64,000 bases of DNA from Actinoplanes oblitus (GTDB lineage: Bacteria; Actinomycetota; Actinomycetes; Mycobacteriales; Micromonosporaceae). The notes beneath the pieces are model-generated. The model had not been told where the DNA came from. It saw only the letters and a list, made by a program, of their open reading frames with translations, and searched no databases. This document shows positions 3,065 through 42,041 of the stretch, one piece after another. Every line of letters starts with the position of its first letter. The first letter of the stretch is position 1. The stretch covers positions 8,875,501-8,939,500 of the forward strand of contig NZ_CP126980.1 in assembly GCF_030252345.1 (NCBI RefSeq), in the 5' to 3' direction. A program made the position numbers and the translations under genes.

Positions 3065-3906
3065 GACGATGGCCTCACAAGCGTCGGCTGCGCACGGCGC
3101 AGCGGAGAGTTGGCGTGGAAACGCGTGCGCTCCGGCTCGCACCACAGCACCGCGTACTTCCTGGCTGTCGGGTCCGACGGCCCCATCCGCTGCTTGATCA
3201 CCGCGATGCGGAACTCCAGGGAATGCGGATCCAGCGCCACGCTTAGGCTCAGCTCCGGCTTCTCCGACAAGCCGCCCTTGACCTGGTCGCGGGAGGGCGG
3301 CGCCCACGGATCGGTCTTCGCTTCCCACGACTTGTCGCTTGCGTGATGCAGCACGATCACGGTGGCGCCGGTGGAGCGGGCCAACTCGGTGAGCCCGGAC
3401 ATGACGGCCATCTGCGCGGTGTAATCACTCTCGGCTGCGTCGAAGTCCATCAAGTTGTCGCAGACGATCACCTGCGGATATGCGTCCCAAAGCTCGACGT
3501 AGGCTTTCAGCTCCTCGTCCAGGGCCTGCCACGTGATCGGCGAACCGAACGCGAACGTGATCTTCGACGGCGCCAGCGCCGACATGTACCGCGCCCGGGA
3601 CTCGCCGCCCGCCGCCATGCCGGCCTCCACCTGTTCGGTGGTGTCGCCGGTGACCATTGACGCCAGCCGCGAGCTGGCCGTGAACGGGGACATGTCGGCC
3701 GAGTAGTACAGGGTCGGCAAGCCCATCTGCGCGACCCAGAACAGCGCGAGGCCACTCTTCTGCGTGCCTGAACGGCCGGCGATCATGACGACTTCCCCGT
3801 GCCGGGGCCGGCACCCGCGCGCATACAGCGCAGCGAATGCCGGCACCCGCGGAAGTTCGCGACCGGACTCGGCGTGCAGGCTGAGCGACCGTCGAGGCGT
3901 CAGCAT
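3061..3906 (-). CDS. DnaB/RecA-fold replicative ATPase
   Basis: 281 residues forming a single RecA-like domain. The Walker A is GRSGTQKS (about residues 44-51) and the Walker B is VIVCDNLMDF. A conserved HH (VLHHASD) follows where DnaB-type helicases have their sensor and loop. It lacks the DnaB N-terminal domain, as do many phage helicases and loader-like ATPases. With the primase genes just downstream it probably forms the phage primosome. Helicase function is inferred from fold and context; a RecA-like recombinase or loader is an alternative. Confidence 0.75.
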   Translation of the reverse strand: MLTPRRSLSLHAESGRELPRVPAFAALYARGCRPRHGEVVMIAGRSGTQKSGLALFWVAQMGLPTLYYSADMSPFTASSRLASMVTGDTTEQVEAGMAAGGESRARYMSALAPSKITFAFGSPITWQALDEELKAYVELWDAYPQVIVCDNLMDFDAAESDYTAQMAVMSGLTELARSTGATVIVLHHASDKSWEAKTDPWAPPSRDQVKGGLSEKPELSLSVALDPHSLEFRIAVIKQRMGPSDPTARKYAVLWCEPERTRFHANSPLRRAQPTLVRPSS

Positions 3907-5929: not shown

Positions 5930-6188
5930 CGAGCGAGTCCAGGGGCGCCAACCAGATACGGATCATCTGATCGGTGAGGAACTCAACCTCGTCCTCAAGC
6001 ACCTCCAGGCCAAGCTGATGCGCCTGCTGGAGCACCTCGCTCATCGAACCAGGCGGGTGACCCAAGGGCGCGTCGATGTAGAACTCGTAGGCGTCTGCGT
6101 CGCAGACCAGCAGCACGCCTTCCTGCCGCTCGATGCGGCGATCGGCAGGGAACACACTGGCGCTGCTATCGCGTGAGACTTGGTCCAT
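5904..6188 (-). CDS. small acidic phage protein, unknown
   Basis: 94 residues, ATG start, acidic, with a predicted beta segment (GVLLVCDADAYEFYIDAP) followed by helices. No known motif. It is probably co-transcribed with the exonuclease, whose start it overlaps. It is called for its protein-like composition and operon position; no strong Shine-Dalgarno is seen. Confidence 0.55.
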   Translation of the reverse strand: MDQVSRDSSASVFPADRRIERQEGVLLVCDADAYEFYIDAPLGHPPGSMSEVLQQAHQLGLEVLEDEVEFLTDQMIRIWLAPLDSLDDDRNPLR

Positions 6189-6518
6189 GCCGGGAGTCTC
6201 ACTTCCGTCGAGGGTTAACGTCTCGGAAAGTGGCCCCCGCTTGTTCCCGGATCATCTCGTTGTCTCACCGTCCCTAAAGCACAAAGAGCCCCCCGTGCAG
6301 CCGAACGGCCGCAGAGAGGCTCCACCTCTGCTGTGAGGAATGCTCGCATTTGCAAGTTGGTTGATCACCCTAGTCGGCTCGCATCGATTGCATAGACCTC
6401 CATGCCGCCTGGCCGGCTTCAATGGCCGAACGGATGATCAACGGCGTCCGAACGGTTGATCTTGTCCGCCTAGCAAAGGCTGACCGACTCGCACCGGTTC
6501 ATGCCGGAACGCACCCAG
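6189..6518. other. non-coding spacer in early operon
   Basis: About 330 bp without a convincing gene on either strand. A GAGCC/GGCTC inverted repeat near 6285-6325 could form a weak hairpin downstream of the leftward HTH gene. No promoter or operator copy is evident. Confidence 0.4.
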
Positions 6519-8911: not shown

Positions 8912-9960
8912 GCTGTCCCGTTGCCGACCTTGACCAGGGCGAGCACCCACGACGATCCGTTGCCGACCCACACGATGGCGTCGCGCCACGTCGTGCCGTC
9001 ACCGACCTTGACGCCGGACAGCGTGGTGAAGGTGGCGGTCGTCGACCAGGCGCCCGACCCGGCAGCGTTGATGGCACGGGTACGGACGTAGTAGATGGTG
9101 CCCGGCAGCAGTCCTGTCAGGGCGCCGGGCGATGAGGGGTCGGTAACTGACGCGACGTTCGTGGTGAAGCCGGCATCGGTGGCCCGCTGGATCTCGTAGT
9201 TCGTGATGGCCGCACCGCCGGTGTCCGATGGCGCGTTCCACGTCACGTTTGCCGAGGTCGGCCCCACGTCACTGATGCCAGGAAGGCCAGGCCCGGACGG
9301 TGTGGTGATGGCAGTCGTGAAGGTCCGGGTGCCGGACCAGCTCGACCAGCCAACGCGGTTGTGCGCCCGCACCCGGGCGTAGAGCACCGTGCCCTTCGGC
9401 AGGCCGGTGACAGTCCTGCCGGCCCACCCCTCCACGTCCCAGCTCGCGATCACATCGGTGAAACCGGAGTTACGTGACACCTGACCTGCGTTGCGGTCTA
9501 GGGCTGCTCCGTTAGTCGCGCCGGCCGACCAGGTCAGGTTCACGCTGGTCGCGGTGATGGAGCCGGCGGTCGGTACGGACGGCGCGGCCGGCACGGACGG
9601 GGGACGTTTCGGCAGGGTGATCGTGCGGGAGTGGGTCGGGCTGGCGCCGTTGAAGGCGCCGGACAGCCGGGCCGAATACGTCATCGTGCCGGTGCCGTCG
9701 TAGTCGACGGCCGCGCTCACGGTGACGGTCTCCAGGAGCTTGCTCGCGCCATTGGCGAGCGAATTGTGGAACGAGCCGGAACCACCGCCGTTGCCGCTCA
9801 GCGTCCAGGTCTGATCGTCATCGAAGTCGAAGTCGTCGGAGCACTGAATGTAGAGCTTGCAGGTCACCGTGACGCTGGTGCTCGATGTCGATGGCGTGCT
9901 GGTGGTCAAGTCAATGCCGAGCCGAAGGTGGCCGTCATAGGAGCCCCAGGTGATTGCCAC
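8902..9960 (-). CDS. minor tail protein with fibronectin III domains
   Basis: 352 residues. The N-terminal ~110 residues form a beta-rich, Thr/Ser-rich domain. Two fibronectin type III domains follow (about 115-215 and 220-310), recognisable from TSVNLTWSAG..., YARVRAHNRVGWSSWS and SANVTWNAPSDTGGAAITNY, YVRTRAINAAGSGAWS. Short repeats end the protein (VKVGDGTTWRDAIVWVGNGS). It is probably exposed at the tail tip and involved in surface binding. GGAGG lies 7 nt before the GTG start. Confidence 0.85.
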   Translation of the reverse strand: MAITWGSYDGHLRLGIDLTTSTPSTSSTSVTVTCKLYIQCSDDFDFDDDQTWTLSGNGGGSGSFHNSLANGASKLLETVTVSAAVDYDGTGTMTYSARLSGAFNGASPTHSRTITLPKRPPSVPAAPSVPTAGSITATSVNLTWSAGATNGAALDRNAGQVSRNSGFTDVIASWDVEGWAGRTVTGLPKGTVLYARVRAHNRVGWSSWSGTRTFTTAITTPSGPGLPGISDVGPTSANVTWNAPSDTGGAAITNYEIQRATDAGFTTNVASVTDPSSPGALTGLLPGTIYYVRTRAINAAGSGAWSTTATFTTLSGVKVGDGTTWRDAIVWVGNGSSWVLALVKVGNGTAWK

Positions 9961-29079: not shown

Positions 29080-29859
29080 ATGGACGATGGCGACGAGACC
29101 CGCGATAGCGCGGGACTGTTGAACGACCTCACGGAGTACAAACCGCTGGTCTACGTCTGGCGCGGTCAGACGTTGCAGGGCTCGATGTGGGTGCCGGCGG
29201 ATCCGCCCGAGGGCGGGGACTCGATCAGGCTCGGTGCGCTGGACATGCGAGAGCAGAGCAGCGTGTACGACCTGACCGACGATGACGTGCGGTACCTGGA
29301 GATCCGCGCGACCGCGTGGGGCGACTACACCGGCTCGACGTACGACCGGAGCAACGCCCGATCCATCCGCCGCGACTTCGGCGACCACGTGATCACGCTC
29401 CGGGCCGACTTCGGGTTTGAAGTGCTGCTCGTGCGGATCGGTGTCGACATCCCCGAAGGGTTGTACGACGCAATCGTGGGCCTGCGCGAGTGCTCGCTGT
29501 ACGACGAGTCCGACCTGTCCGACCTGGAATCCGAGCTGGAATCCGAGGACTGGGCGAACTGGGGTCGCAGCGACTGGACGGGCGAGGTCCGCAAGCTCGC
29601 GCAGCAGCTCGACCAGGACGACGACGTGACCGAGCTGCACGACGACGCGTACGCCGATGACCTGTTCTGGGCTGTGTGCGCCGACGGTGAGGCCGGCTAC
29701 TGGCAGGCGGAAACCGCCGTGTCCGGCTACTGGTCCGACTTCGAGCGGGCCGCCAAGCTGGCCTGGCAGGAGATCGAGCGCCGCCGCATGGCGGCGTTAG
29801 AGGAATGGGCGCGCGAACTGTCCGCGCCGATCCCCGGGCAACTCGCCCTCGCAATCTGA
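29080..29859 (+). CDS. acidic protein, first gene of ribozyme operon
   Basis: 259 residues. I chose the ATG at 29080 (GGAG 5 nt upstream) over a start 45 nt earlier. Strongly acidic, with beta segments (YKPLVYVWRGQTLQGSMWVP; EIRATAWGDYTGSTYDRSNA; FEVLLVRIGVDIPEGLYDAI), an Asp/Glu/Ser-rich stretch (SDLSDLESELESEDWANWG) and a helical C-terminus. No known motif. Codon use and length of conserved secondary structure argue it is real. Its stop is 4 nt before hammerhead copy 1. Function unknown; acidic early phage proteins often bind host targets (speculative). Confidence 0.75.
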   Translation: MDDGDETRDSAGLLNDLTEYKPLVYVWRGQTLQGSMWVPADPPEGGDSIRLGALDMREQSSVYDLTDDDVRYLEIRATAWGDYTGSTYDRSNARSIRRDFGDHVITLRADFGFEVLLVRIGVDIPEGLYDAIVGLRECSLYDESDLSDLESELESEDWANWGRSDWTGEVRKLAQQLDQDDDVTELHDDAYADDLFWAVCADGEAGYWQAETAVSGYWSDFERAAKLAWQEIERRRMAALEEWARELSAPIPGQLALAI

Positions 29860-29862
29860 AAT

Positions 29863-29920
29863 GCCGAAACCCCTTCGGGGGTCGCGTGGATTGGCATTCC
29901 ACGCCTGATGACGGCTGCCC
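29863..29920 (+). ncRNA. type II hammerhead ribozyme, copy 1
   Basis: Stem II 5' strand GCC (29863-29865), GAAA core (29866-29869), stem III ACCCC-UUCG-GGGGU, cleavage base C29883, stem I GCGTGGA/TCCACGC (29884-29890, 29898-29904) with loop TTGGCAT, CTGATGA core (29905-29911), one extra C, GGC closing stem II, then TGCC, which can pair with loop I GGCA. All invariant hammerhead core positions are present. The predicted cut is after 29883. It separates the 259-aa gene from the next small gene. Confidence 0.92.
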
Positions 29921-29967
29921 TTGGCGCTGACTGATTGCTTAAATCAAATCTCCCGATGGGACGACCT

Positions 29968-30285
29968 ATGCCCGTGGAACCGATTCACCCGAACCCGCAC
30001 GTCGTTGCCGCGCTGGCGGCGCTGTCGGACGCGCTGGACCACCTAAACATGGCTGGCTACCCATATGCCGTGGGCATCAAGGGGGTCGATGAGCCGTACG
30101 GCATGGTGCAGCGTGCCGCCGATCGCACGCTCGTGCACGCATTCCCTGACCTGGACTCCGACGAGATCCAGTACGCACGGGCCGACAGCGGCGAAAGCTA
30201 CGAGCACGTGGTTCGCGCGCTGCGGCACGAGCGCGCTGGTTGCATGCAGGACGTGTCTACGGCCGAGAACGGGCAGACCCCGTGA
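29968..30285 (+). CDS. small phage protein, unknown
   Basis: 105 residues from the ATG at 29968 (an in-frame ATG at 29956 is an alternative). HVVAALAALSDALDHLNMAG is a clear amphipathic helix, followed by YPYAVGIKGVDEPYGMVQRA and LDSDEIQYARADSGESYEHV. No family recognised. It starts 48 nt after hammerhead copy 1 and overlaps the next gene (GTGA). Confidence 0.7.
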   Translation: MPVEPIHPNPHVVAALAALSDALDHLNMAGYPYAVGIKGVDEPYGMVQRAADRTLVHAFPDLDSDEIQYARADSGESYEHVVRALRHERAGCMQDVSTAENGQTP

Positions 30286-30623
30286 GTCGGCAACCCGACG
30301 CGCGGAGCGTCGTCACGTACCGATGGCAGCACTGCAAAGGCGGATACGACGTCACCGATCAGTCGTTCTGCGAGGCGAACGCCGACAGGGTCCGCGCGTG
30401 GGACGGCGCGCACGGCGATCTCTGCCTTGTGGAGGTCATCCGCACCCCGCGGGGCCGCTGGCGGATCACGTCAACCGAATGCGCGGCCGGCATTCCGATC
30501 AGCGGTTACGACCGTCGGTTCCCCTCGCCGCTGGATGCACTGGGTTACGTGCTCAAACGGTCAAGCCGGCGTCCCGTCGAGGCTGTCTGCCGGTGCGGCA
30601 CTCCCGGCGCCGAATGCGACTAG
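30282..30623 (+). CDS. small phage protein, unknown
   Basis: 113 residues from a GTG overlapping the upstream TGA. VVTYRWQHCKGGYDVTDQSF, DLCLVEVIRTPRGRWRITST, then FPSPLDALGYVLKRSSRRPV and a CRCGTPGAEC end, where two or three Cys could hold a metal. The middle resembles small beta proteins of actinophages. Hammerhead copy 2 begins 7 nt after its stop. Confidence 0.7.
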   Translation: MSRQPDARSVVTYRWQHCKGGYDVTDQSFCEANADRVRAWDGAHGDLCLVEVIRTPRGRWRITSTECAAGIPISGYDRRFPSPLDALGYVLKRSSRRPVEAVCRCGTPGAECD

Positions 30624-30629
30624 TGGTTC

Positions 30630-30687
30630 GCCGAAACCCCTTCGGGGGTCGGGTGGATTGGCATTCCACCCCTGACGATGGCTGCCA
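30630..30687 (+). ncRNA. type II hammerhead ribozyme, copy 2
   Basis: GCC-GAAA (30630-30636), stem III with UUCG loop identical to copy 1, cleavage base C30650, stem I GGGTGGA/TCCACCC (30651-30657, 30665-30671), CTGACGA (30672-30678), an extra T, GGC, TGCCA. Against copy 1, the second stem I pair changes from C-G to G-C, a compensatory change on both strands. Confidence 0.92.
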
Positions 30688-30705
30688 AACGCAGGAGGAC
30701 ACCAA

Positions 30706-31029
30706 ATGCCGAAGGTCATTGACGAGAATTCGTACAGCGAGGCGCACCACACGATTTACGGGAGCATCGAGGATGCCGACCCGATCACCGTCGAAAAGCG
30801 CCGCTTCCTGCCGTCCCGTTTCTCGGTGACGTACGACTACCGGACGCACGTCAATCCGGTCGGCTGGTCACCGCGCCTGATCGACATCAGCGGCCCGTGG
30901 ATCGACGAGGACGGCATCGCCACAGGCGACGGATCGGGACGGGTCCTGTTGCCGCCGAGCCAGGCGCCGCAGTGGGCGCGCGACTTCGTCACGGCGAAGG
31001 TTCCGAGCCTGCGGCTGGTCGATCAGTGA
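30706..31029 (+). CDS. small phage protein, unknown
   Basis: 107 residues, ATG with AGGAGG 7 nt upstream. The N-terminus reads MPKVIDENSYSEAHHTIYGS; then ITVEKRRFLPSRFSVTYDYR and WSPRLIDISGPWIDEDGIAT. The C-terminus (SQAPQWARDFVTAKVP) is helical. No family recognised. It is a single-gene unit bounded by ribozymes 2 and 3. Confidence 0.75.
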   Translation: MPKVIDENSYSEAHHTIYGSIEDADPITVEKRRFLPSRFSVTYDYRTHVNPVGWSPRLIDISGPWIDEDGIATGDGSGRVLLPPSQAPQWARDFVTAKVPSLRLVDQ

Positions 31030-31033
31030 GAAC

Positions 31034-31090
31034 GCCGAAACCCCTTCGGGGGTCCGCCGGCCTGGCATGCCGGCGCTGATGAGGCTGCCA
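31034..31090 (+). ncRNA. type II hammerhead ribozyme, copy 3
   Basis: The best match to the consensus: GCC-GAAA (31034-31040), ACCCC-UUCG-GGGGU, cleavage base C31054, stem I CGCCGGC/GCCGGCG (31055-31061, 31069-31075) with loop CTGGCAT, CTGATGA (31076-31082) followed directly by GGC with no extra base, then TGCCA. All pairs of stem I differ in sequence from copy 1 yet remain paired. Confidence 0.94.
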
Positions 31091-31105
31091 CTTGGGGAGG
31101 AAACC

Positions 31106-31699
31106 TTGAGCAACAACACGGTCGAGCGCGTTCGGGTGCTCGCGGGACACACCAGTCCGGAGACCGCGTACCTGGTGGAGGACTACCCGTACGGGCGGGT
31201 GCTGCGTTGCCAGATCCGCTATTGGATCGAGACCGCGAGCAAGGGTGCAAAGAAGGGGATGCAGCGGTTCGTCCGGCAGACCACCAATCCGAAGGTCGCG
31301 GGTGAGCCGTGGAACAAGCCGCACGCGGGGCAGTACGCGCCGCTGGTGTTCCTGTACCTCGACGGCGATGACTATGTGCAGCACATCGGCGTGTCGGAGT
31401 ACGGCATCGATCCGCACGCGGACGCCCGGCTGCGGCTGATGGGCATCTACGAGCAGATGAGTACCGAGCAGCGCGCCCGCTATGACGCCCTGCTTGCGGT
31501 GTCGCGCCGGTACGAGGAGCCGTGGCAGCAGTGGGAAGCGACCATCGCGGCGATGGCTGAGCACATCCGCAGCACCGGTGAGGATCCCGTCCTGACTAAC
31601 GGTCTCTGGGAGTGGCCCGCTGGGCGGGCGTACGTCACCGATCACAACCTGCCGGTGTACGTTACCGCCGCTCGACAGCAGCTCACCGCCGAGCAATAG
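31106..31699 (+). CDS. phage protein, unknown
   Basis: 197 residues, TTG start with GGGGAGG 5 nt upstream. RVRVLAGHTSPETAYLVEDY and VLRCQIRYWIETASKGAKKG are beta-rich and basic; QRFVRQTTNPKVAGEPWNKP follows; APLVFLYLDGDDYVQHIGVS and a helical C-terminal half (YEEPWQQWEATIAAMAEHIR). No catalytic motif recognised. It is one of the two largest proteins of the ribozyme operon and forms a single-gene unit between ribozymes 3 and 4. Confidence 0.78.
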   Translation: MSNNTVERVRVLAGHTSPETAYLVEDYPYGRVLRCQIRYWIETASKGAKKGMQRFVRQTTNPKVAGEPWNKPHAGQYAPLVFLYLDGDDYVQHIGVSEYGIDPHADARLRLMGIYEQMSTEQRARYDALLAVSRRYEEPWQQWEATIAAMAEHIRSTGEDPVLTNGLWEWPAGRAYVTDHNLPVYVTAARQQLTAEQ

Positions 31700-31726
31700 C
31701 CCAATTCCCTCGATCACTCCCGTTGA

Positions 31727-31803
31727 GCCGAAACCGCGTCCGGCTCAACGCGGGCCGGGCTCGGTCCGCCGGATTGGCATTCCGGCGCTGACGATGGCTG
31801 CCA
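31727..31803 (+). ncRNA. type II hammerhead ribozyme, copy 4 (long stem III)
   Basis: GCC-GAAA (31727-31733), an extended stem III of 33 nt (ACCG/CGGT base, inner GTCCGGC/GCCGGGC), cleavage base C31766, stem I CGCCGGA/TCCGGCG (31767-31773, 31781-31787) with loop TTGGCAT, CTGACGA (31788-31794), extra T, GGC, TGCCA. A competing 10-bp hairpin (31721-31730 with 31741-31750) would break stems II and III. Confidence 0.88.
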
Positions 31804-31827
31804 ATCACCCGTGAAGGCGATGACGCG

Positions 31828-32145
31828 ATGAACTTTGAAGAAGTCACTGATCCGGCCGCGTTCCTGAAGCCCACGTTGCGCGACGCCGCCCGCCGATTCG
31901 GCGTGAAGCGCTATTCGGATATGACCAAGGCCGATTTGGTCGAAGCACTGGGACACACCGCCTGGTCGCCGGCTGCTGAGGCGATCCACACCTACCTGAA
32001 CGAGCACCACCCGAAGAACGGCCAGCCGCCGCAGACCTGCGCCGTGTGCTTCCGCCCGAGGGACAGGCACTCCCTGCCGACCCCGAGCCGCTTCGGTTGG
32101 CCCAGCGAGTGGCGTTGGCCGCTGGGCGAGCCCTTCCGCCGCTGA
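31828..32145 (+). CDS. SAP-like small phage protein
   Basis: 105 residues. Residues about 15-42 (PTLRDAARRFGVKRYSDMTK, then ADLVEALGH) fit the SAP/Rho-N helix-extended loop-helix motif that binds nucleic acid. A CAVC pair and FRPRDRHSLPTPSRFGWPSE follow. RNA or DNA binding is inferred from that motif. Bounded by ribozymes 4 and 5. Confidence 0.7.
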   Translation: MNFEEVTDPAAFLKPTLRDAARRFGVKRYSDMTKADLVEALGHTAWSPAAEAIHTYLNEHHPKNGQPPQTCAVCFRPRDRHSLPTPSRFGWPSEWRWPLGEPFRR

Positions 32146-32148
32146 CCT

Positions 32149-32205
32149 GCCGAAACCCCTTCGGGGGTCCGCCGGCCTGGCATGCCGGCGCCGACGAGGC
32201 TGCCA
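32149..32205 (+). ncRNA. type II hammerhead ribozyme, copy 5 (core variant)
   Basis: GCC-GAAA (32149-32155), UUCG-capped stem III, cleavage base C32169, stem I CGCCGGC/GCCGGCG (32170-32176, 32184-32190), then CCGACGA instead of CUGACGA (U4 to C), GGC, TGCCA. The change hits a conserved core base and may slow cleavage. Otherwise nearly identical to copy 3. Confidence 0.85.
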
Positions 32206-32217
32206 ATGGAGGAACGA

Positions 32218-32565
32218 ATGGAAGCGGAAGAACTCACCAGGGAGGATCCCGGTCCGGCATTGATTCCGCTGAACACGCATGAGCTGCGCGTCGGCGACAT
32301 CGTGCACCTGTTCGGCATGCGCGTGCATCTGTCCCGCGAGCCGCACATCGAGAAGCGTCAGCGTGTGGTCTACGCGTGGGATGGCGACGTGCTGAACCCG
32401 GAAGAAGCCATCGCGTACGGCATGGTCCCTCGCAGCTTCCTCGGCGACAACCGATGGCACGAGGAACACGGCTGGGTCTGGGAGCAGACCAACCGATGGC
32501 TCGTCCAGGGTAACGACCTGGCGATGTGGGCGGTCGAGCGTCCCGCTGAGGCGGAGGCGAGCTGA
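32218..32565 (+). CDS. small phage protein, unknown
   Basis: 115 residues from the ATG at 32218 (GGAGG 5 nt upstream); a second ATG 12 nt earlier is possible. LNTHELRVGDIVHLFGMRVH is a pattern I recognise from many small actinophage proteins with an SH3-like start; RQRVVYAWDGDVLNPEEAIA and RSFLGDNRWHEEHGWVWEQT follow. Function unknown. Two-gene unit with the next gene. Confidence 0.72.
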   Translation: MEAEELTREDPGPALIPLNTHELRVGDIVHLFGMRVHLSREPHIEKRQRVVYAWDGDVLNPEEAIAYGMVPRSFLGDNRWHEEHGWVWEQTNRWLVQGNDLAMWAVERPAEAEAS

Positions 32566-32567
32566 CG

Positions 32568-32885
32568 ATGGCCACCAAGCTGTCACAGCGGCTCTCCGAC
32601 GGCACGACGATCACGGTTCGCCGTTCCCGCACGCTGATCGGTACCCAGTTCGTCGAGGTCCACTCGGTGCGCGGCGTGGCCAAACACGCGCTGTTGTGGA
32701 TGGACGGCGGCATGTACGTGCTGTACGGCAAGGGCGACATGATGCGGATCCGTCACCCGGACTACAGCTTCGCCCCGACCGAGGCCGAGGCCGGGCGCAA
32801 GGCTCTCGCGTTCTTCGTCGACAGCGCGGAGAGCGTGATCGAGCACGCGAAGAGCGAGGGCATTCCGGTAGCCGACTGCTACTGA
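32568..32885 (+). CDS. small phage protein, unknown
   Basis: 105 residues. The ATG is 3 nt after the previous stop, so translation is probably coupled; there is no ribozyme between. GTTITVRRSRTLIGTQFVEV, VAKHALLWMDGGMYVLYGKG and HPDYSFAPTEAEAGRKALAF: a beta-rich N-terminal half and a helical end. No family recognised. Confidence 0.7.
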   Translation: MATKLSQRLSDGTTITVRRSRTLIGTQFVEVHSVRGVAKHALLWMDGGMYVLYGKGDMMRIRHPDYSFAPTEAEAGRKALAFFVDSAESVIEHAKSEGIPVADCY

Positions 32886-32913
32886 ACTCGCCTGCACCCC
32901 GATCCCCCGTTGA

Positions 32914-32989
32914 GCCGAAACCGCGTCCGGCTCCATCGGTCGGGCTGCGGTCCGCCGGATTGGCATTCCGGCGCTGACGATGGCTGCCA
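32914..32989 (+). ncRNA. type II hammerhead ribozyme, copy 6 (long stem III)
   Basis: GCC-GAAA (32914-32920), stem III with base ACCGC/GCGGT and inner GTCCG/CGGGC, cleavage base C32952, stem I CGCCGGA/TCCGGCG (32953-32959, 32967-32973), CTGACGA (32974-32980), extra T, GGC, TGCCA. Sister of copy 4 but with an altered stem III that stays paired. Its competing hairpin is only 6 bp. Confidence 0.9.
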
Positions 32990-33004
32990 CAAAGGAGCGC
33001 GGAC

Positions 33005-33235
33005 ATGGACGACGACCAGATGGTGTACGTCAACTTCACCGAGACCACCGAATACAGCCTGGAACTGGAACTCGTCGAGATGGCGAAGGTTCTCGGGATC
33101 GGTAAGAAGAAGCTGGCCACGATGATCGAGAACGGCGAGGACTTGGAGCCGTCCGACGCGGCCGTGGCGCGGATGCGCAAGCAGGCCGAGGTCACCGACG
33201 GACAGGTGACGGTCGACGACTTCGGCGAAGCCTGA
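33005..33235 (+). CDS. small acidic helical protein
   Basis: 76 residues. ATG with AAAGGAG upstream. Acidic ends and a helical middle (LVEMAKVLGIGKKKLATMIE; DAAVARMRKQAEVT). The middle resembles a one-turn helix-turn-helix (ELELVEMAKVLGIGKKKL), as in XRE-like N-termini, but it is too short to be sure. Single-gene unit between ribozymes 6 and 7. Confidence 0.68.
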   Translation: MDDDQMVYVNFTETTEYSLELELVEMAKVLGIGKKKLATMIENGEDLEPSDAAVARMRKQAEVTDGQVTVDDFGEA

Positions 33236-33241
33236 TTGCAC

Positions 33242-33314
33242 GCCGAAACCCGCCCCGGCGCGACGCCGGGGCGGGTCGCGTGGACTGGCATTCCACGCCT
33301 GATGACGGCTGCCA
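33242..33314 (+). ncRNA. type II hammerhead ribozyme, copy 7 (13-bp stem III)
   Basis: GCC-GAAA (33242-33248), stem III of 13 perfect pairs closed by a CGA loop (33248-33276), cleavage base C33277, stem I GCGTGGA/TCCACGC (33278-33284, 33292-33298) with loop CTGGCAT, CTGATGA (33299-33305), extra C, GGC, TGCCA. Stem I equals copy 1 while stem III is wholly different. Confidence 0.94.
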
Positions 33315-33339
33315 CATTCCCTGACGAAAGGTGCGGGCG

Positions 33340-33732
33340 ATGGACCCTGCCCTGATGAACGACGACCAGCGCCGCGACCACTTCCGTGGCCTCGCGCAGG
33401 ACTACGCCCGCCGGTACGCGCAGCTCGTGATTGATGCGCTCGGCGGGCAGGTCTCCAGCAACGCCGCTGCGGTCCTGCATCGCATGGGGTTCGAGCTGGG
33501 ACACGACGCGTGCCAGATCTTGGCCAACGAGATCCGGCCTCGCGTCGCCCCGGCCTCTGTCGACGACCGGCCCACCGTGACGATCACCCGGGAACAGGTC
33601 GAGTGCTGGGCCGGACGCACGCTCACCGACGACGAGGTGTACGTCCTGGACGGCTGCATTCCGAACTCGTCGATCCCGGACGCCGTCGGAGACATCGTCG
33701 CCAGCTTCCCCGAGGACAGCGACGATGAGTGA
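33340..33732 (+). CDS. phage protein, unknown
   Basis: 130 residues from the ATG at 33340. The first half is helical (FRGLAQDYARRYAQLVIDAL; NAAAVLHRMGFELGHDACQI); then DDRPTVTITREQVECWAGRT and LTDDEVYVLDGCIPNSSIPD and an acidic C-terminus. No family recognised. Its end overlaps the next start by 8 bp. Confidence 0.72.
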   Translation: MDPALMNDDQRRDHFRGLAQDYARRYAQLVIDALGGQVSSNAAAVLHRMGFELGHDACQILANEIRPRVAPASVDDRPTVTITREQVECWAGRTLTDDEVYVLDGCIPNSSIPDAVGDIVASFPEDSDDE

Positions 33733-34327
33733 CGTCCTGGAGATCCGAGGCGACCTGCGGGTCCGGCTCGCGCACGACGGCTGCGCCGCCGAGCCGTACT
33801 TCGAGGGGCGTAGTCCGATCCTGCGGCTCTACCCGTCGCGCTCGTGGGGCGGCTGGCGAGGCGAGTACATCGACAGCATCGGCGCATACACGCCGACCGC
33901 GGCCGACGACATCCTGACCGCTGCGGAGAAGTGGGCCGGCGGGCCGGACCTGTTCGAGCGGTACCTGCGGATGTTCCACGGGACCACCGCGGTCGAGTGG
34001 TACGACGGGCGCCCGGGTGGCGGGGACTTCGTGTACGTCACGTTCGACACCGCGGGCTGGCGCGCTCGCTACGACCTGCCGGATGACGTCGCCGGCATCG
34101 TCGATCTCAGCGAGTGGCGTGCGTACTGCGAGGGCGACGTCTACGGCTACGTCGTCGAGGAGCGGGCGACCTGGCAACGCACCAACGGGGCCGGCGAGGT
34201 GGCCGAGACCCGCGAGACGTGGGAGCCGGTCGATTCCTGCTGGGGCTTCTACGGCCACCAGTACGCCGAGACAGCCGGCCGCAGCGTGCTCGACGCCATG
34301 ACCTCAGCGCTTCCCGCTGCGGCCTGA
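33725..34327 (+). CDS. phage protein, unknown
   Basis: 200 residues. Rich in Trp, Tyr, Gly and Asp, beta-type: RGDLRVRLAHDGCAAEPYFE, SRSWGGWRGEYIDSIGAYTP, FHGTTAVEWYDGRPGGGDFV and DVYGYVVEERATWQRTNGAG. Middle gene of the only three-gene unit between ribozymes (7 and 8). Similar aromatic-rich proteins occur in actinophage accessory regions, but I can assign no function. Confidence 0.75.
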   Translation: MSDVLEIRGDLRVRLAHDGCAAEPYFEGRSPILRLYPSRSWGGWRGEYIDSIGAYTPTAADDILTAAEKWAGGPDLFERYLRMFHGTTAVEWYDGRPGGGDFVYVTFDTAGWRARYDLPDDVAGIVDLSEWRAYCEGDVYGYVVEERATWQRTNGAGEVAETRETWEPVDSCWGFYGHQYAETAGRSVLDAMTSALPAAA

Positions 34328-34346
34328 TCACGACAGGAGAGCAGTC

Positions 34347-34595
34347 ATGCAGTTCCCGCAACGAATCGGCCCGGACCGTGTCGTCGCCTTCATCCAGATC
34401 GGGTCGGCGCCCGGCACTCAGGCCCATCAGGGCGTCGCGATCACCAAGGACAAGGACGGCTTCAACGTCCATTCCGTCTGGCTGGCAGACGCCGAAATCG
34501 GTCGGTGGGAGGCGCAGAACGGCCGATACGGCGTCACCTGGCAGCGCGCCCTTGACGCGATGGTCGATCGCGCCGCCACCTCACCCCCGCCGTAA
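34347..34595 (+). CDS. small phage protein, unknown
   Basis: 82 residues. ATG with AGGAG upstream. RIGPDRVVAFIQIGSAPGTQ, GVAITKDKDGFNVHSVWLAD and RYGVTWQRALDAMVDRAAT. A compact alpha/beta protein with no family recognised. Ribozyme copy 8 begins at the base after its stop. Confidence 0.7.
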   Translation: MQFPQRIGPDRVVAFIQIGSAPGTQAHQGVAITKDKDGFNVHSVWLADAEIGRWEAQNGRYGVTWQRALDAMVDRAATSPPP

Positions 34596-34670
34596 GCCGA
34601 AACCCCGCCCCGGGCTGCCGGTGGTGCGGGTCGCCAGGGCGTGGCGTCCCTGGCCTGACGATGGCTGCCA
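34596..34670 (+). ncRNA. type II hammerhead ribozyme, copy 8
   Basis: GCC-GAAA (34596-34602), longer imperfect stem III with ACCC/GGGT base, cleavage base C34632, stem I GCCAGGG/CCCTGGC (34633-34639, 34648-34654) with 8-nt loop CGTGGCGT, CTGACGA (34655-34661), extra T, GGC, TGCCA. Stem I is fully different from other copies yet fully paired, and loop TGGC still matches GCCA downstream. Confidence 0.92.
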
Positions 34671-34685
34671 ATCAAGGAGATCTAC

Positions 34686-34946
34686 GTGGACGAATACGTT
34701 CGAGCGGACGCGACCGTGACGGTCACGCTCGATGCGAACCTGGCCCTGCTGCTCATGTCCGGCATCCGCCGGATGGACGCCGCCTGGACCAAGGCGCTGA
34801 CCAAGGAGGAAGCCGGCAGCAAGATCGAGCCCGACATCCGCGCGGCTCGTAACCTGCCCAACCACATTGCCCGCGCCCTGCGGGACCTGGGCGAGAAGGT
34901 CAGCACGGCCGAACTCAGCTTCGGCAAGGTCGAGATCATCAAGTAG
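34686..34946 (+). CDS. small helical phage protein
   Basis: 86 residues, GTG start with AAGGAG 6 nt upstream. A short beta start (ADATVTVTLDANLALLLMSG) and mostly helical remainder (RMDAAWTKALTKEEAGSKIE; NLPNHIARALRDLGEKVSTA). No family recognised. Its stop is 1 nt before ribozyme copy 9. Confidence 0.7.
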   Translation: MDEYVRADATVTVTLDANLALLLMSGIRRMDAAWTKALTKEEAGSKIEPDIRAARNLPNHIARALRDLGEKVSTAELSFGKVEIIK

Positions 34947-34947
34947 T

Positions 34948-35022
34948 GCCGAAACCTGCGTCCCGGCCAGCGCCGGGGCGTAGGTCGTGTGGGCGGCATC
35001 CTACACCTGACGATGGCTGCCA
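34948..35022 (+). ncRNA. type II hammerhead ribozyme, copy 9 (14-bp stem III)
   Basis: GCC-GAAA (34948-34954), 14-bp stem III (34954-34985) with two G-U pairs and CAGC loop, cleavage base C34986, stem I GTGTGGG/CCTACAC (34987-34993, 35000-35006) with loop CGGCAT, CTGACGA (35007-35013), extra T, GGC, TGCCA. The last copy; it heads the segment with the 143-aa gene, excisionase and integrase. Confidence 0.92.
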
Positions 35023-35166
35023 CCAGGGGATACGCGCGTGACGGGCGCCCCGTGTGGGCGGCCATCACGCATTTCTGACCCGCCCGCGTAGCGCTGTGGT
35101 TGAGGGACCTCCCACGGCTGCCGGATCGCGGGGCGGCAACGCCGAAGGCGAGGAGGCAAATCCCTG

Positions 35167-35598
35167 GTGCGTTTGACACCACGCAAGGAAGAGATCGACG
35201 GCGTCAAAGCCATCCTGGAAAGCGACGCCTACACCACCGCCGACCAGATGGCCAAGGCCCTGATCAAAGAGGTCGCCGACATGCTGTGGATGCGCGACTG
35301 GTTCGCGCTCGTCCACCTCAACGAGGCAGGAAGCGGCGGGCTGAACTGGGCGCCGTTCGCCAGCCCGATCGAAGCACTGAACACCGCCGAGAAGATCGCC
35401 ATCGGCGGACGCTTCGGCACGGTCAAGCTCTACAGCCCCGGCGCCCTGCTCGGCAACGCCCTCGGCAAGAAGGGCTGGAAGGGCTTCTGCCAGGACCCGG
35501 GATGCGGTCACGCCCCGTTCCTGCACCTCATGGACGGCAGCGCCCGCGGCGCCTGCGGCCTCGCCTCCATGTGCACCTGCAAGAAGTACATCAAGTGA
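35167..35598 (+). CDS. Cys-rich phage protein, unknown
   Basis: 143 residues, GTG start with GGAGG about 10 nt upstream. The N-terminal two-thirds is helical (EIDGVKAILESDAYTTADQM; LIKEVADMLWMRDWFALVHL). The C-terminal third has GFCQDPGCGHAPFLH and CGLASMCTCKKYIK, five Cys and two His that could form a zinc site. No family recognised. A 145-bp gap separates it from ribozyme copy 9; a 21-codon frame starting in that ribozyme's core (35013) is probably not a gene. Confidence 0.72.
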   Translation: MRLTPRKEEIDGVKAILESDAYTTADQMAKALIKEVADMLWMRDWFALVHLNEAGSGGLNWAPFASPIEALNTAEKIAIGGRFGTVKLYSPGALLGNALGKKGWKGFCQDPGCGHAPFLHLMDGSARGACGLASMCTCKKYIK

Positions 35599-35621
35599 CA
35601 CGGCCGACGGGGGACGACACC

Positions 35622-35825
35622 ATGCCGCATCCGCACCCGCTTGACGAGCTGCCGGCGCTGATCTCCGTGCCGCACGCCGCGAAGCTGCTCGGCCTCGCGC
35701 GGGCCTCCGCGTACCGCTACGCCGCAGCCGGCGAACTGCCGGTCCACCGGATGGGCGGACGCGTGTACGTGATCACCGCCAAGATCCGCCCCCTCATCGA
35801 CGGCAGCGAGGAGCTGGCCGCCTGA
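35622..35825 (+). CDS. xis: excisionase-like HTH protein
   Basis: 67 residues from the ATG at 35622 (GGGGGA 7 nt upstream; an in-frame GTG at 35595 is possible). LISVPHAAKLLGLARASAYR then YAAAGELPVHRMGGRVYVIT is the winged MerR-like helix-turn-helix of phage and plasmid excisionases. Located just before the integrase, as expected for the partner controlling excision. Confidence 0.8.
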   Translation: MPHPHPLDELPALISVPHAAKLLGLARASAYRYAAAGELPVHRMGGRVYVITAKIRPLIDGSEELAA

Positions 35826-35837
35826 CACGAAAGGAAG

Positions 35838-37331
35838 ATGATGCCGAGCAAGACCACGAAGGCCAGCGGCGCGGAGCAAGGCGGTCAGCCGAAGATTCCC
35901 GGGATCTCGGTCTACCAGCGGCGCGGACGGTGGACCTTCATGGTCTACCTCGACAAGGACCCGCTCACCGGCAAGCGCCCCTCGATTCAAGGACCGGTCT
36001 TCGACACCGACGCCGAGGCGTTCCAAGCGGCCGTCCTCGCCAAGGCGAAGGCCGAGGAGAACGGCGGCAAGAAACTGGTCCTGCCGACCGACACGGTCGA
36101 ACAGGTCGTCTCCAAGTGGCTGGTGGCCGTCAAGGACTCCGTCAAGCCGAGCCAGTACGCGAACTGGGAGACCAACGCCCGCGCCTACGTGTACCCGCTC
36201 ATCGGGCATCTCCCGTTCCGCAAGGCCGACGTGACGGTCCTGAACGCGTTCTACGCACGGCTGTCCAACAACGGGCGGATCAAGCCCGACAACAACCTGA
36301 AGATGTACCAGTACTGGTCGAAGCACCGCGACCAGCGCGACGGCCAAGGCCCCACGTCCCGCGAGATCGCCGAAGCGTGCGGGGTCACCATCCACGCCGC
36401 GAAGGCCGCCGTCACCCGCTACCGGCGCGGCCGGGTGGCCGAGGCGAAACCGACCGGCCTCGCCCGCAAGTCGATCAAGAACATCCACGGGATGCTCTGC
36501 CTGGTCTGGGTCGACGTCATCGGCCAAGGGTTCAAGGTCGACAACGCCACCACCAACGCGCGGATCCCGAAGCAGCCAGGCCGGCGGCGATCGAGGACGC
36601 GTGAGGCGACCTGGACCGTCGAGCACCTGGCCCGGTGGCTGGCCTTCGCGCTGCGGGATCGGTTCTACGGGCTGTGGGTGCTCGAAGCCACCACCGGGAT
36701 GCGCCGCTCCGAGCTGGCCGGCGCGGATGAGGTCCGCCTCGACCGCGAGAAGAAGATCCTGCACGTCCACGAGACCCGCGTGGTGGTCAACGGGCGGGCG
36801 GAGGACTCCGACGGCAAGACCGATGCCGGGTGGCGGGCGATCAGCTTGGACGACTTCACGTTCGAGGTGATCTGCCGCTACATCGACATGCTCCACGAGG
36901 AGGCGAAGAAGTACGGCAAGGGCTACGAGAACCCCGGCAAGCTGGCCGTCTGGCCGGACGGCAAGCTCGTCCACCCGGACACCCTCACGCGTCGCTTCAA
37001 CAAGCTGGTCGACCTCGCCGGAGTCCCCAAGATCCGGCTGCATGACGTGCGTCACGCGTACGTGACCCTCGCTCGGATCCTCGGAGTCAACCGAAAGATC
37101 CTCGCGGACCGCGTCGGGCACGCCAACGAAACGGTCACCGACACCGTTTACACCCACGTCAGCGTCGGACATGACCGCGAGCTGGCGGACAAGATCGGCG
37201 GGGCAATCCTGGAAGCCCTGAAGGAAGCGGCCGGATCTGAGTTGAAGGTGGAGCTGGAAGCCGGCCGCGTGTACGAGTTGGAGGCCGGCGCCGCCCCGGT
37301 CGATCAGCGCGGAGAACTTTTCGCGGCCTGA
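35838..37331 (+). CDS. int: tyrosine integrase with inserted HTH
   Basis: About 497 residues (a second ATG follows directly). The N-terminal arm-binding domain has SVYQRRGRWTFMVYLDKDPL. The catalytic domain has Arg289 (ATTGMRRSEL), His402 and Arg405 (LHDVRHAYVT), His428 (GHANETV) and the nucleophile Tyr438 (TVYTHV). An unusual ~50-residue insert in the core-binding domain carries a helix-turn-helix (TSREIAEACGVTIHAAKAAV). It integrates the prophage at the adjacent initiator tRNA gene. Confidence 0.93.
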   Translation: MMPSKTTKASGAEQGGQPKIPGISVYQRRGRWTFMVYLDKDPLTGKRPSIQGPVFDTDAEAFQAAVLAKAKAEENGGKKLVLPTDTVEQVVSKWLVAVKDSVKPSQYANWETNARAYVYPLIGHLPFRKADVTVLNAFYARLSNNGRIKPDNNLKMYQYWSKHRDQRDGQGPTSREIAEACGVTIHAAKAAVTRYRRGRVAEAKPTGLARKSIKNIHGMLCLVWVDVIGQGFKVDNATTNARIPKQPGRRRSRTREATWTVEHLARWLAFALRDRFYGLWVLEATTGMRRSELAGADEVRLDREKKILHVHETRVVVNGRAEDSDGKTDAGWRAISLDDFTFEVICRYIDMLHEEAKKYGKGYENPGKLAVWPDGKLVHPDTLTRRFNKLVDLAGVPKIRLHDVRHAYVTLARILGVNRKILADRVGHANETVTDTVYTHVSVGHDRELADKIGGAILEALKEAAGSELKVELEAGRVYELEAGAAPVDQRGELFAA

Positions 37332-37397: not shown

Positions 37398-37474
37398 TGG
37401 TAGCGGGGACAGGATTTGAACCTGCGACCTCTGGGTTATGAGCCCAGCGAGCTACCGAGCTGCTCCACCCCGCG
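37398..37474 (-). tRNA. initiator tRNA-fMet(CAT), prophage attachment end
   Basis: The 5' half is CGCGGGGTGGAGCAGCTCGG and the anticodon arm CTGGG-CTCATAA-CCCAG. Positions 1 and 72 do not pair and the anticodon stem has three G-C pairs, both initiator hallmarks. The CCA is encoded here (37398-37400). The 3' end faces the integrase, so the prophage probably joined within the 3' part of this gene (attR). A second copy at 41968-42041 has the identical 74-nt body but no encoded CCA. Confidence 0.95.
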
Positions 37475-41893: not shown

Positions 41894-41967
41894 CTCGGCC
41901 CCGGAGCAGATATGCGAAGAGGGGCCCCGGTCCGCGCACTCCGCGGACAGGGACCCCTCGCCACTCG

Positions 41968-42041
41968 TAGCGGGGACAGGATTTGAACCTGCGACCTCTG
42001 GGTTATGAGCCCAGCGAGCTACCGAGCTGCTCCACCCCGCG
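41968..42041 (-). tRNA. initiator tRNA-fMet(CAT), second copy
   Basis: The 74-nt body is identical to the tRNA at 37401-37474, and 14 further bases of the 5' flank (TTTATCTACCGA on the RNA side) are also shared. CCA is not encoded. It could be the original host gene or the other end of a 4.5-kb duplication or island. Confidence 0.95.

Follow-up and report, generated by a model that had tools for sequence, protein, structure and literature searches.

Nine type II hammerhead motifs between the gene blocks of a prophage operon in Actinoplanes oblitus and their predicted role in transcript cutting

Results and discussion

Overall organization of the array

A rightward prophage operon of Actinoplanes oblitus carries nine type II hammerhead motifs between its cistrons, all on the + strand at positions 29863–35025 of the window (the whole stretch of 64,000 nucleotides that was analyzed). 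The motifs are predicted to cut the operon transcript at nine GUC sites, with the probable release of separate mRNAs that each hold one to three genes. The phage structural genes lie on the - strand to the left of the array, while an excisionase-like gene and an integrase occupy the right prophage end. A copy of the tRNA-Met 3′ end (47 bp, 98%) is found at genome position 8861089 and, together with the tRNA-Met at 37398–37474, bounds about 52 kb, confirming a prophage of that size integrated in tRNA-Met. The first-pass annotation had described a rightward prophage operon with nearly every cistron bounded by a hammerhead; these features bear out the prophage, and the positions, read directly, show that nearly every gene block of the operon is so bounded:

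29080–29859, + strand: gene ahead of the first ribozyme, 259 aa, 73% identical to its sister-prophage counterpart
29863–29923, + strand: ribozyme R1, type II hammerhead, predicted cut after 29883, Rfam E 0.0047
29968–30623, + strand: unit R1–R2, two overlapping genes (29968–30285 and 30282–30623)
30630–30690, + strand: ribozyme R2, type II hammerhead, predicted cut after 30650, Rfam match in the array-region search
30706–31029, + strand: unit R2–R3, one gene, 107 aa
31034–31093, + strand: ribozyme R3, type II hammerhead, predicted cut after 31054, over the Rfam gathering score
31106–31699, + strand: unit R3–R4, one gene, start taken as the TTG at 31106
31727–31806, + strand: ribozyme R4, type II hammerhead, predicted cut after 31766, Rfam match in the array-region search
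31828–32145, + strand: unit R4–R5, one gene, 105 aa, with a weak Rho_N-like stretch under the Pfam cut-off
32149–32208, + strand: ribozyme R5, type II hammerhead with U4C, predicted cut after 32169, Rfam match in the array-region search
32218–32885, + strand: unit R5–R6, two genes (32218–32565 and 32568–32885)
32914–32992, + strand: ribozyme R6, type II hammerhead, predicted cut after 32952, over the Rfam gathering score
33005–33235, + strand: unit R6–R7, one gene, 76 aa
33242–33317, + strand: ribozyme R7, type II hammerhead, predicted cut after 33277, Rfam match in the array-region search
33340–34595, + strand: unit R7–R8, three genes (33340–33732, 33725–34327 and 34347–34595)
34596–34673, + strand: ribozyme R8, type II hammerhead, predicted cut after 34632, over the Rfam gathering score
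34686–34946, + strand: unit R8–R9, one gene, 86 aa
34948–35025, + strand: ribozyme R9, type II hammerhead, predicted cut after 34986, Rfam search without a match
35167–37331, + strand: genes 3′ of R9, namely a phrog_3965 gene (35167–35598), the excisionase-like gene (35622–35825) and the integrase (35841–37331)
37398–37474, - strand: tRNA-Met, attachment site and right prophage end

Pfam and PHROGs searches left the operon genes mostly without functional assignment, and a promoter and terminator scan, restricted to the sigma-70 type, gave nothing above shuffles.

Conservation of the hammerhead fold

Every copy reads, in order, GCC-GAAA, stem III, GUC, stem I, CUGANGA and GGC, which is the type II arrangement, with loop-closed stems I and III and an open stem II. 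The NUH cleavage triplet is GUC and the stem II halves are GCC/GGC in all nine. A pseudoknot that joins loop I to the 3′ tail, common but not universal in type II hammerheads, has at least four Watson-Crick pairs in each of the nine and is invariant across them. The full catalytic core (CUGANGA plus GAAA) is present in eight copies, and the core of R5 reads CCGACGA, in keeping with the earlier count of eight perfect cores and a ninth with one change; this change, U4C, is cited as much weaker in vitro in Perreault et al. 2011 (PMC3088659). Six paired versions were counted for stem I, as the first-pass annotation had stated, and six for stem III, for which it had given at least five. R1, R2, R3 and R5 have a stem III in common, yet three stem I versions occur among them; a stem I is common to R4 and R6, and likewise to R3 and R5.

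A strict descriptor combining the core, an NUH triplet, stem I of at least 5 bp, stem III of at least 4 bp and stem II of at least 2 bp matches the window eight times on the + strand and nowhere on the - strand. Against the Rfam type II model (RF02276, Hammerhead_II), the check that the first-pass annotation had proposed, three of the nine copies score over the gathering score; when the array region is searched alone eight match at E ≤ 0.005, so that five more are recovered below threshold and R9 is missed. The window copies share with this family the core, the GUC site, closed stems I and III, the short open stem II and the loop I–tail pseudoknot, but most score near or below the gathering score, and in seven of the nine one additional base stands between the core and stem II.

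We also built a covariance model of our own, seeded from four window copies. Its first version, in which the stem II brackets were one column off and one stem I pair was absent, was used for searching and for alignments A3 and A4, and covariance model R2 (not to be confused with ribozyme R2) was derived from A4 with the corrected structure. Two-sided changes are seen in 13 of 20 pairs among 70 distinct copies and in 16 of 20 among 143 distinct copies, and therefore the RNA fold is selected. Across the 143 copies these changes cover stems I–III and the loop I–tail pseudoknot, which also covaries in array G364. The claims of nine type II hammerheads, and of a structure kept while its sequence changes, thus hold on core, architecture, an independent Rfam match and covariation. 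With our own model no further copies were found elsewhere in the 9.8-Mb host genome at E ≤ 0.001, and a whole-genome Rfam search returned three weak matches (E 3.5–4.5).

Predicted processing of the operon transcript

The placement of the ribozymes is tight. The distance from stop codon to ribozyme is 0–28 nt in the window, that from cut to start codon is 48–62 nt for R2–R8, and in many copies the pseudoknot tail lies directly 5′ of the ribosome-binding site. Cutting at the nine predicted GUC sites would release mRNAs carrying one to three genes. Each would start with a 5′-OH followed by the stem I hairpin and the loop I–tail pseudoknot, placed directly before the ribosome-binding site; its 3′ end would be the stem III hairpin, bearing a 2′,3′-cyclic phosphate. 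With such structured ends, each gene block may have a stability and a translation of its own, uncoupled from those of its neighbors. Operon-wide arrays with strict placement argue for mRNA processing, and the ribozymes would act as operon punctuation comparable to the tRNAs that punctuate mitochondrial transcripts, where host RNases cut at real tRNAs. Both systems set cleavable RNA elements between the cistrons of one long transcript; however, host RNases cut in the mitochondrial case, whereas self-cutting is predicted for the RNA of the window array. The two resemble each other in function alone, as no tRNA or tRNA-like element lies between the cistrons of the array: the tRNAs in the window, at 37398 and 41967, are both outside it, and no tRNA-like minihelix (see below) was found in the window.

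Perreault et al. 2011 (PMC3088659) already described prophages in which clustered hammerheads lie on both sides of single genes or of short gene blocks, and proposed that they process long transcripts. The paper reports that three tandem sets from prophages were cleaved in vitro and one in E. coli, and states the function of bacterial and phage hammerheads as unproven at that date. The window array, with its repeated hammerheads around one gene or a few within a prophage, is of this known kind. If the comparison is confined to the tested sets, these are tandem, on fragments of about 2 kb and with one triple, whereas the window has nine copies over a whole operon. A literature search with most subscription journals outside its coverage returned no later answer on phage hammerhead function and, in titles and abstracts, nothing on arrays spanning an operon or on tRNA-like minihelices in Streptomyces phages.

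Arrays and an alternative element in other phages

At least 12 other phages, among them the laboratory Streptomyces phage R4, carry 8–12 hammerhead copies, and the idea that nine copies are unique is rejected. The reading of the first-pass annotation is thus qualified in two respects: the kind was known and the copy number recurs. With any hammerhead match present in 15 of 354 family genomes, the array is rare. In prophage G296 the called start codon falls 15–23 nt past the match for 10 of 11 ribozymes. Of the 42 hammerheads in four annotated phages, 12 have their midpoint within an annotated gene, which may reflect misannotation.

Among Streptomyces phages, this analysis identified hammerhead arrays in R4-like members (Celia, Alvy, Janus, R4 and others). 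As in the window, they consist of type II copies (8–11) on the coding strand between short genes, here of the early region, but these phages differ from the window prophage in lineage and gene content, and their integrases are of the serine type where annotated (Joe, Alvy and Janus) as against a tyrosine integrase in the window prophage. Among a sample of 14 R4-like (Arquatrovirinae) phages, nine have hammerhead arrays and no minihelix, and the remaining five have minihelices and no hammerhead. The minihelix is a 44-nt tRNA-like element present in 7–10 copies per phage in those five (scanned at 6+5 bp, a setting that missed one visible copy in Joe); it reaches no gathering score in Rfam, and in Hydra no hammerhead was found in the part searched. 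Minihelices lack the hammerhead leader structure and sit at several of the same orthologous junctions as hammerheads, and the F5–F4 gene pair has an element on both sides in all six phages compared (four hammerhead, two minihelix). That a tRNA-like element stands at some of the hammerhead gene borders in sister phages suggests that transcript cutting is the selected property, although the tree permits a single hammerhead/minihelix switch and the mutual exclusion may represent one event. In phage Alderaan, for which RNA-seq has been published (PMC9239200), neither element was found in the 14.4 of 34.4 kb searched.

We consider the odds about even that in many dsDNA phages most gene borders of an operon are punctuated by interchangeable RNA-cutting elements, namely self-cleaving hammerheads (as in the window prophage and in phage R4) or, in Joe and Hydra, a 44-nt tRNA-like minihelix that had not been described before and that host RNase P would cut. 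These would be two unrelated solutions yielding individually ended mRNAs from a polycistronic transcript.

Alternative explanations

It is unlikely, in our estimate, that the ribozymes are translational or ligand-responsive switches in which cutting, or the pseudoknot beside the ribosome-binding site, sets output and cistron separation is a by-product. The position of the pseudoknot tail fits such a switch, as does the predicted access of the ribosome-binding site upon cutting, which, computed without the pseudoknot, rises in eight of nine copies by at most 0.26 and falls in R7. These changes are small, however, a weak indication that cutting frees the site, and no additional conserved ligand-binding-type domain is visible among the copies listed; moreover, minihelices take the place of hammerheads without this leader structure. 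This replacement also bears on the quite improbable reading that released cistrons are circularized or spliced, their 5′-OH and 2′,3′-cyclic-phosphate ends being joined by reverse ligation or host RtcB: minihelices cut by RNase P, if so cut, would not yield such ends. RtcB is encoded at two loci of the host genome, and with the same stem II in all nine copies the ends of different copies could pair, but array G364 has one GCC/GGC copy among at least eight of the GTC/GAC kind, and the ends of that one copy do not match those of its neighbors; Perreault et al. 2011 (PMC3088659) reports that circular and spliced products were sought and not detected.

A role at the DNA level, with the copies serving as homologous joints for gene-cassette exchange and having no RNA role, would account for the mosaic of stem I and stem III combinations in the window and for the different gene order of G296 and G360; the two-sided changes that keep pairing across 143 distinct copies make it very improbable. 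These changes also weigh against chance GC-rich hairpins or decayed, inert ribozymes, which the R5 core change and the 69% G+C of the window might otherwise recall and to which we assign next to no probability. The strict descriptor found no match on either strand of 100 dinucleotide shuffles of the window and eight of nine cores are intact, and a chance origin is rejected on these grounds and on covariation.

Implications

If operon punctuation by RNA cutting is true, many phage early mRNAs would carry 5′-OH ends, which are generally not captured by common 5′-end mapping methods. The alternation of hammerhead and minihelix at several of the same gene boundaries makes the role of phage hammerheads testable and, since phages R4 and Joe are both recorded with Streptomyces coelicolor as host, the question of function can be addressed directly in a laboratory strain.

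A hammerhead array in a prophage operon

Nine motifs lie on the forward strand between 29863 and 35025, and direct reading confirms the type II order assigned to them by the first-pass annotation, here read as GCC-GAAA, a stem III hairpin, GUC, a stem I hairpin, CUGANGA, (Y)GGC and UGCC. The full hammerhead core is present in eight, as had also been claimed, and R5 (CCGACGA, a U4C change) is the sole exception. Perreault et al. 2011 (PMC3088659) cite a U4C variant that cleaves weakly in vitro but suffices in a viroid.

Hammerhead motifs of the array (start, strand, predicted cut after the position named, distance from the preceding stop codon; GUC in all)
R1: 29863, +, cut after 29883, 3 nt
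R2: 30630, +, cut after 30650, 6 nt
R3: 31034, +, cut after 31054, 4 nt
R4: 31727, +, cut after 31766, 27 nt
R5: 32149, +, cut after 32169, 3 nt
R6: 32914, +, cut after 32952, 28 nt
R7: 33242, +, cut after 33277, 6 nt
R8: 34596, +, cut after 34632, 0 nt
R9: 34948, +, cut after 34986, 1 nt

A descriptor comprising the core, cleavage triplet and minimum stems matched the 64-kb window eight times on the forward strand (all but R5) and never on the reverse, and matched neither strand in 100 dinucleotide-preserving shuffles of the window. In the Rfam type II search proposed at first pass, three of nine motifs exceed the gathering score in the whole window; in the array region alone, eight of nine score E 1e-7 to 5e-3 and R9 is missed.

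The array's setting, within a single-contig host genome of 9.8 Mb, bears out its earlier description as a prophage operon. To its left, the reverse strand carries the capsid, portal, terminase and tail genes, and the rightward ribozyme operon ends in an excisionase-like gene and then a tyrosine-type integrase, beside tRNA-Met (37398–37474). The other attachment site is a 47-bp, 98% copy of the tRNA-Met 3′ end at genome position 8861089, and the prophage therefore spans about 52 kb. A near-identical tRNA-Met gene (41967–42041) lies 4.5 kb from the first; the left one is the attachment site. No further ribozyme copies were found in the host genome at E 0.001.

Every ribozyme sits between two rightward genes, and none occurs where genes overlap or are separated by less than about 20 nt (30282, a gene start of our choosing, 32568, 33725 and 34347). 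The predicted cuts, which divide the interior of the operon into eight RNA units, each with one to three genes, fall 48–62 nt before the start codon for R2–R8, 84 nt for R1 and 180 nt for R9. Promoter- or terminator-like sites in the array region did not exceed the shuffled number (sigma-70 consensus only).

Selection on the fold

Searching 44 sources with a first model (E ≤ 0.001) yielded 75 copies, whose 70 distinct rows show two-sided changes in 13/20 pairs (shuffles as high, 0/500). A larger alignment of the 150 best among 208 matches (143 distinct rows) gives 16/20 pairs (3/500), with 94% of cells paired and a covariation score of 0.644 vs 0.152 shuffled and at most 0.079 in slid registers; both alignments are biased towards stem pairing by having been fitted to the stems, and the pseudoknot lies outside the models. 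These changes indicate that the hammerhead fold is under selection, in keeping with the first-pass view that structure is kept while sequence changes.

Pairing between loop I and the tail was measured outside the alignment: 111 of 138 copies (of the 143) have a run of at least four Watson-Crick pairs, vs 40 with the tail reversed. Array G364 contains the pseudoknot versions TGGCT/AGCCA, ATTGATC/GATCAAT, TTGGTT/AACCAA, GTTGAGCA/TGCTCAAC and GTGGC/GCCAC, and nine of its copies average 5.89 pairs with their own partners vs 4.06 when swapped; 28 copies from other records give 5.07 vs 3.90. Swapping changes little among the window copies (5.11 vs 5.18) or among 38 copies of another set (4.03 vs 3.89), so these two offer no pseudoknot covariation.

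A sister prophage (genome G258, of the same genus) keeps five ribozymes at junctions matching R1, R3, R4, R8 and R9, a junction counting as matched when one or both flanking genes are orthologous; the surrounding orthologous proteins are 70–77% identical. Between the two, one U-A pair of R9 stem I has changed to C-G.

Distribution of the arrays

Our covariance model R2 matched 15 of 354 family genomes, with 9 copies in the window's genome, 11 in G296, 6 in G054 and 5 in G258, and 4 of 394 genomes drawn from the class, the window's among them. Close patterns found 17 viral records, two with nine copies and fifteen with one to four. Two looser patterns gave 106 further loci, of which 50, chosen mostly for longer contigs, were searched (some of the other 56 lie in the same records): 45 contain hammerhead matches, 14 at least five copies and 6 nine to twelve. 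The record search loses copies, as in G768, with 5 there and 12 across its two loci by direct search. Near an intact hammerhead, L063 (9347–9399) and L015 (3986–4038) each hold a shrunken copy with almost no stem III, possibly a decaying ribozyme. One viral record (G810) includes 8 kb identical to Streptomyces phage Celia.

Fifteen GenBank Streptomyces phages were searched in part (Joe in full), a non-random sample chosen through BLAST lists or by name, with Alderaan included for its RNA-seq; 14 are Arquatrovirinae.

Elements in Streptomyces phages (hammerheads at E ≤ 0.01; minihelices by structural scan)
Celia, Alvy, Janus: 11 hammerheads each
Thestral, VieEnRose: 10 hammerheads each
phiScoe1: 10 hammerheads and one weak opposite-strand match
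R4, phiELB20: 9 hammerheads each
Daudau: 8 hammerheads
Joe: 7 minihelices and an eighth by eye, L209 43053–47675, − strand
Hydra: 10 minihelices, L211 4119–11371
Goby, Verabelle: 7 minihelices each
Izzy: 9 minihelices
Records with 7–10 minihelices between genes: L209 (Joe), L211 (Hydra), L325, L329 and L330

Of the 42 hammerhead midpoints in Celia, Alvy, Janus and R4, 30 fall in the mere 5–13% of sequence that annotation leaves outside genes, at a median of 13 nt past the stop and 17 nt ahead of the next start; the other 12 fall within annotated genes, some very short ORFs. Three tiny R4 genes that overlap hammerheads (L213), gp60.1 (3763–3846), gp67.1 (6126–6218) and gp75.1 (9074–9175), may be spurious. 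Hammerhead pairs 2–3 nt apart occur in Alvy (L210 15396–15528), Thestral (L326 8000–8133) and phiScoe1 (L332 7367–7497). OCR-like antirestriction genes lie within the arrays of Celia (L208 9353–9775) and R4 (L213 7303–7833), and Perreault et al. 2011 (PMC3088659) note ardA beside prophage hammerheads; anti-defence genes may be common cargo.

A tRNA-like minihelix in sister phages

Hammerheads are absent from Joe and from the parts searched of Hydra, Goby, Verabelle and Izzy. A 44-nt repeat, first seen in Joe's gene gaps, is built of an acceptor-like stem (5 bp), a linker of 11 nt in which GGCA never varies, and a T-arm-like hairpin of 6 bp whose loop reads UUCGANN; most copies end in ACU. The scan found none in the nine hammerhead phages, in Alderaan or in single-base shuffles of six phages. 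It demanded pairing, so only the changes are informative: across 17 copies, two-sided changes occur in 7/11 pairs (shuffles as high, 4/500) and the covariation score is 0.562 vs 0.148 shuffled (0/500), while the count of additional pair types is unremarkable (71/500). In Joe and Hydra, ARAGORN called no tRNA and Rfam gave nothing at gathering score for the minihelices; the top weak match in Hydra is mascRNA-menRNA (26.9 bits vs 42.5), an RNase P product. The minihelix is possibly an RNase P substrate.

In six phages compared for gene order, both junctions of the F5-F4 gene pair hold an element in 6/6 (hammerhead in 4, minihelix in 2). All four phages that have F14 also hold one at the junctions on either side of it (two phages of each kind); many other junctions differ, or carry nothing in some of the phages. 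A dNMP-kinase tree covering 13 of the 14 Arquatrovirinae needs one hammerhead/minihelix change, with weak support (47/9; a single change in 45% of bootstrap trees), so the difference may be a single exchange.

Relation to known hammerheads and possible role

Natural type II hammerheads, their pseudoknot and clusters flanking prophage genes are described by Perreault et al. 2011 (PMC3088659), who saw three tandem prophage sets cleave in vitro and one in E. coli, and all three hammerhead types occur in prokaryotes and phages according to a 2020 review (PMC7761336). Since clustered prophage hammerheads are published, and flank genes there as here, the window array belongs to a known kind, of which it is a large instance. 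As to the first-pass remark that no operon with nearly every cistron bounded by a hammerhead was known, our literature search found no account of operon-wide actinophage arrays, or of the minihelix.

The motifs, their placement and recurrence, the selection on the fold and the different element in sister phages are observed. Self-cutting mRNA processing is inferred from here on; we prefer it to circularisation, to control by a ligand or of translation, and to shuffling at the DNA level. As regards circularisation, Perreault et al. 2011 (PMC3088659) report that no circular or spliced products were detected. PMC9239200 notes that a hammerhead ribozyme is bound by aminoglycosides, which also inhibit some Streptomyces phages; the susceptible phage Alderaan has no hammerhead in the part searched. 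The ribozyme halves of the window form a mosaic, and DNA-level shuffling may therefore be a side effect. Two RtcB-family loci in the host (G000:C1:3359821-3360909 and 7404918-7405904) could act on 5′-OH and cyclic-phosphate ends.

Under self-cutting mRNA processing, the RNA would cut itself during transcription and release each gene block with a 5′-OH pseudoknotted leader and a 3′ hairpin, where UUCG- and GCGA-type stem III caps would provide firm 3′ ends. If both members of a close pair cut, a fragment of about 65 nt would be released. Such cutting would separate the fates of neighbouring mRNAs.
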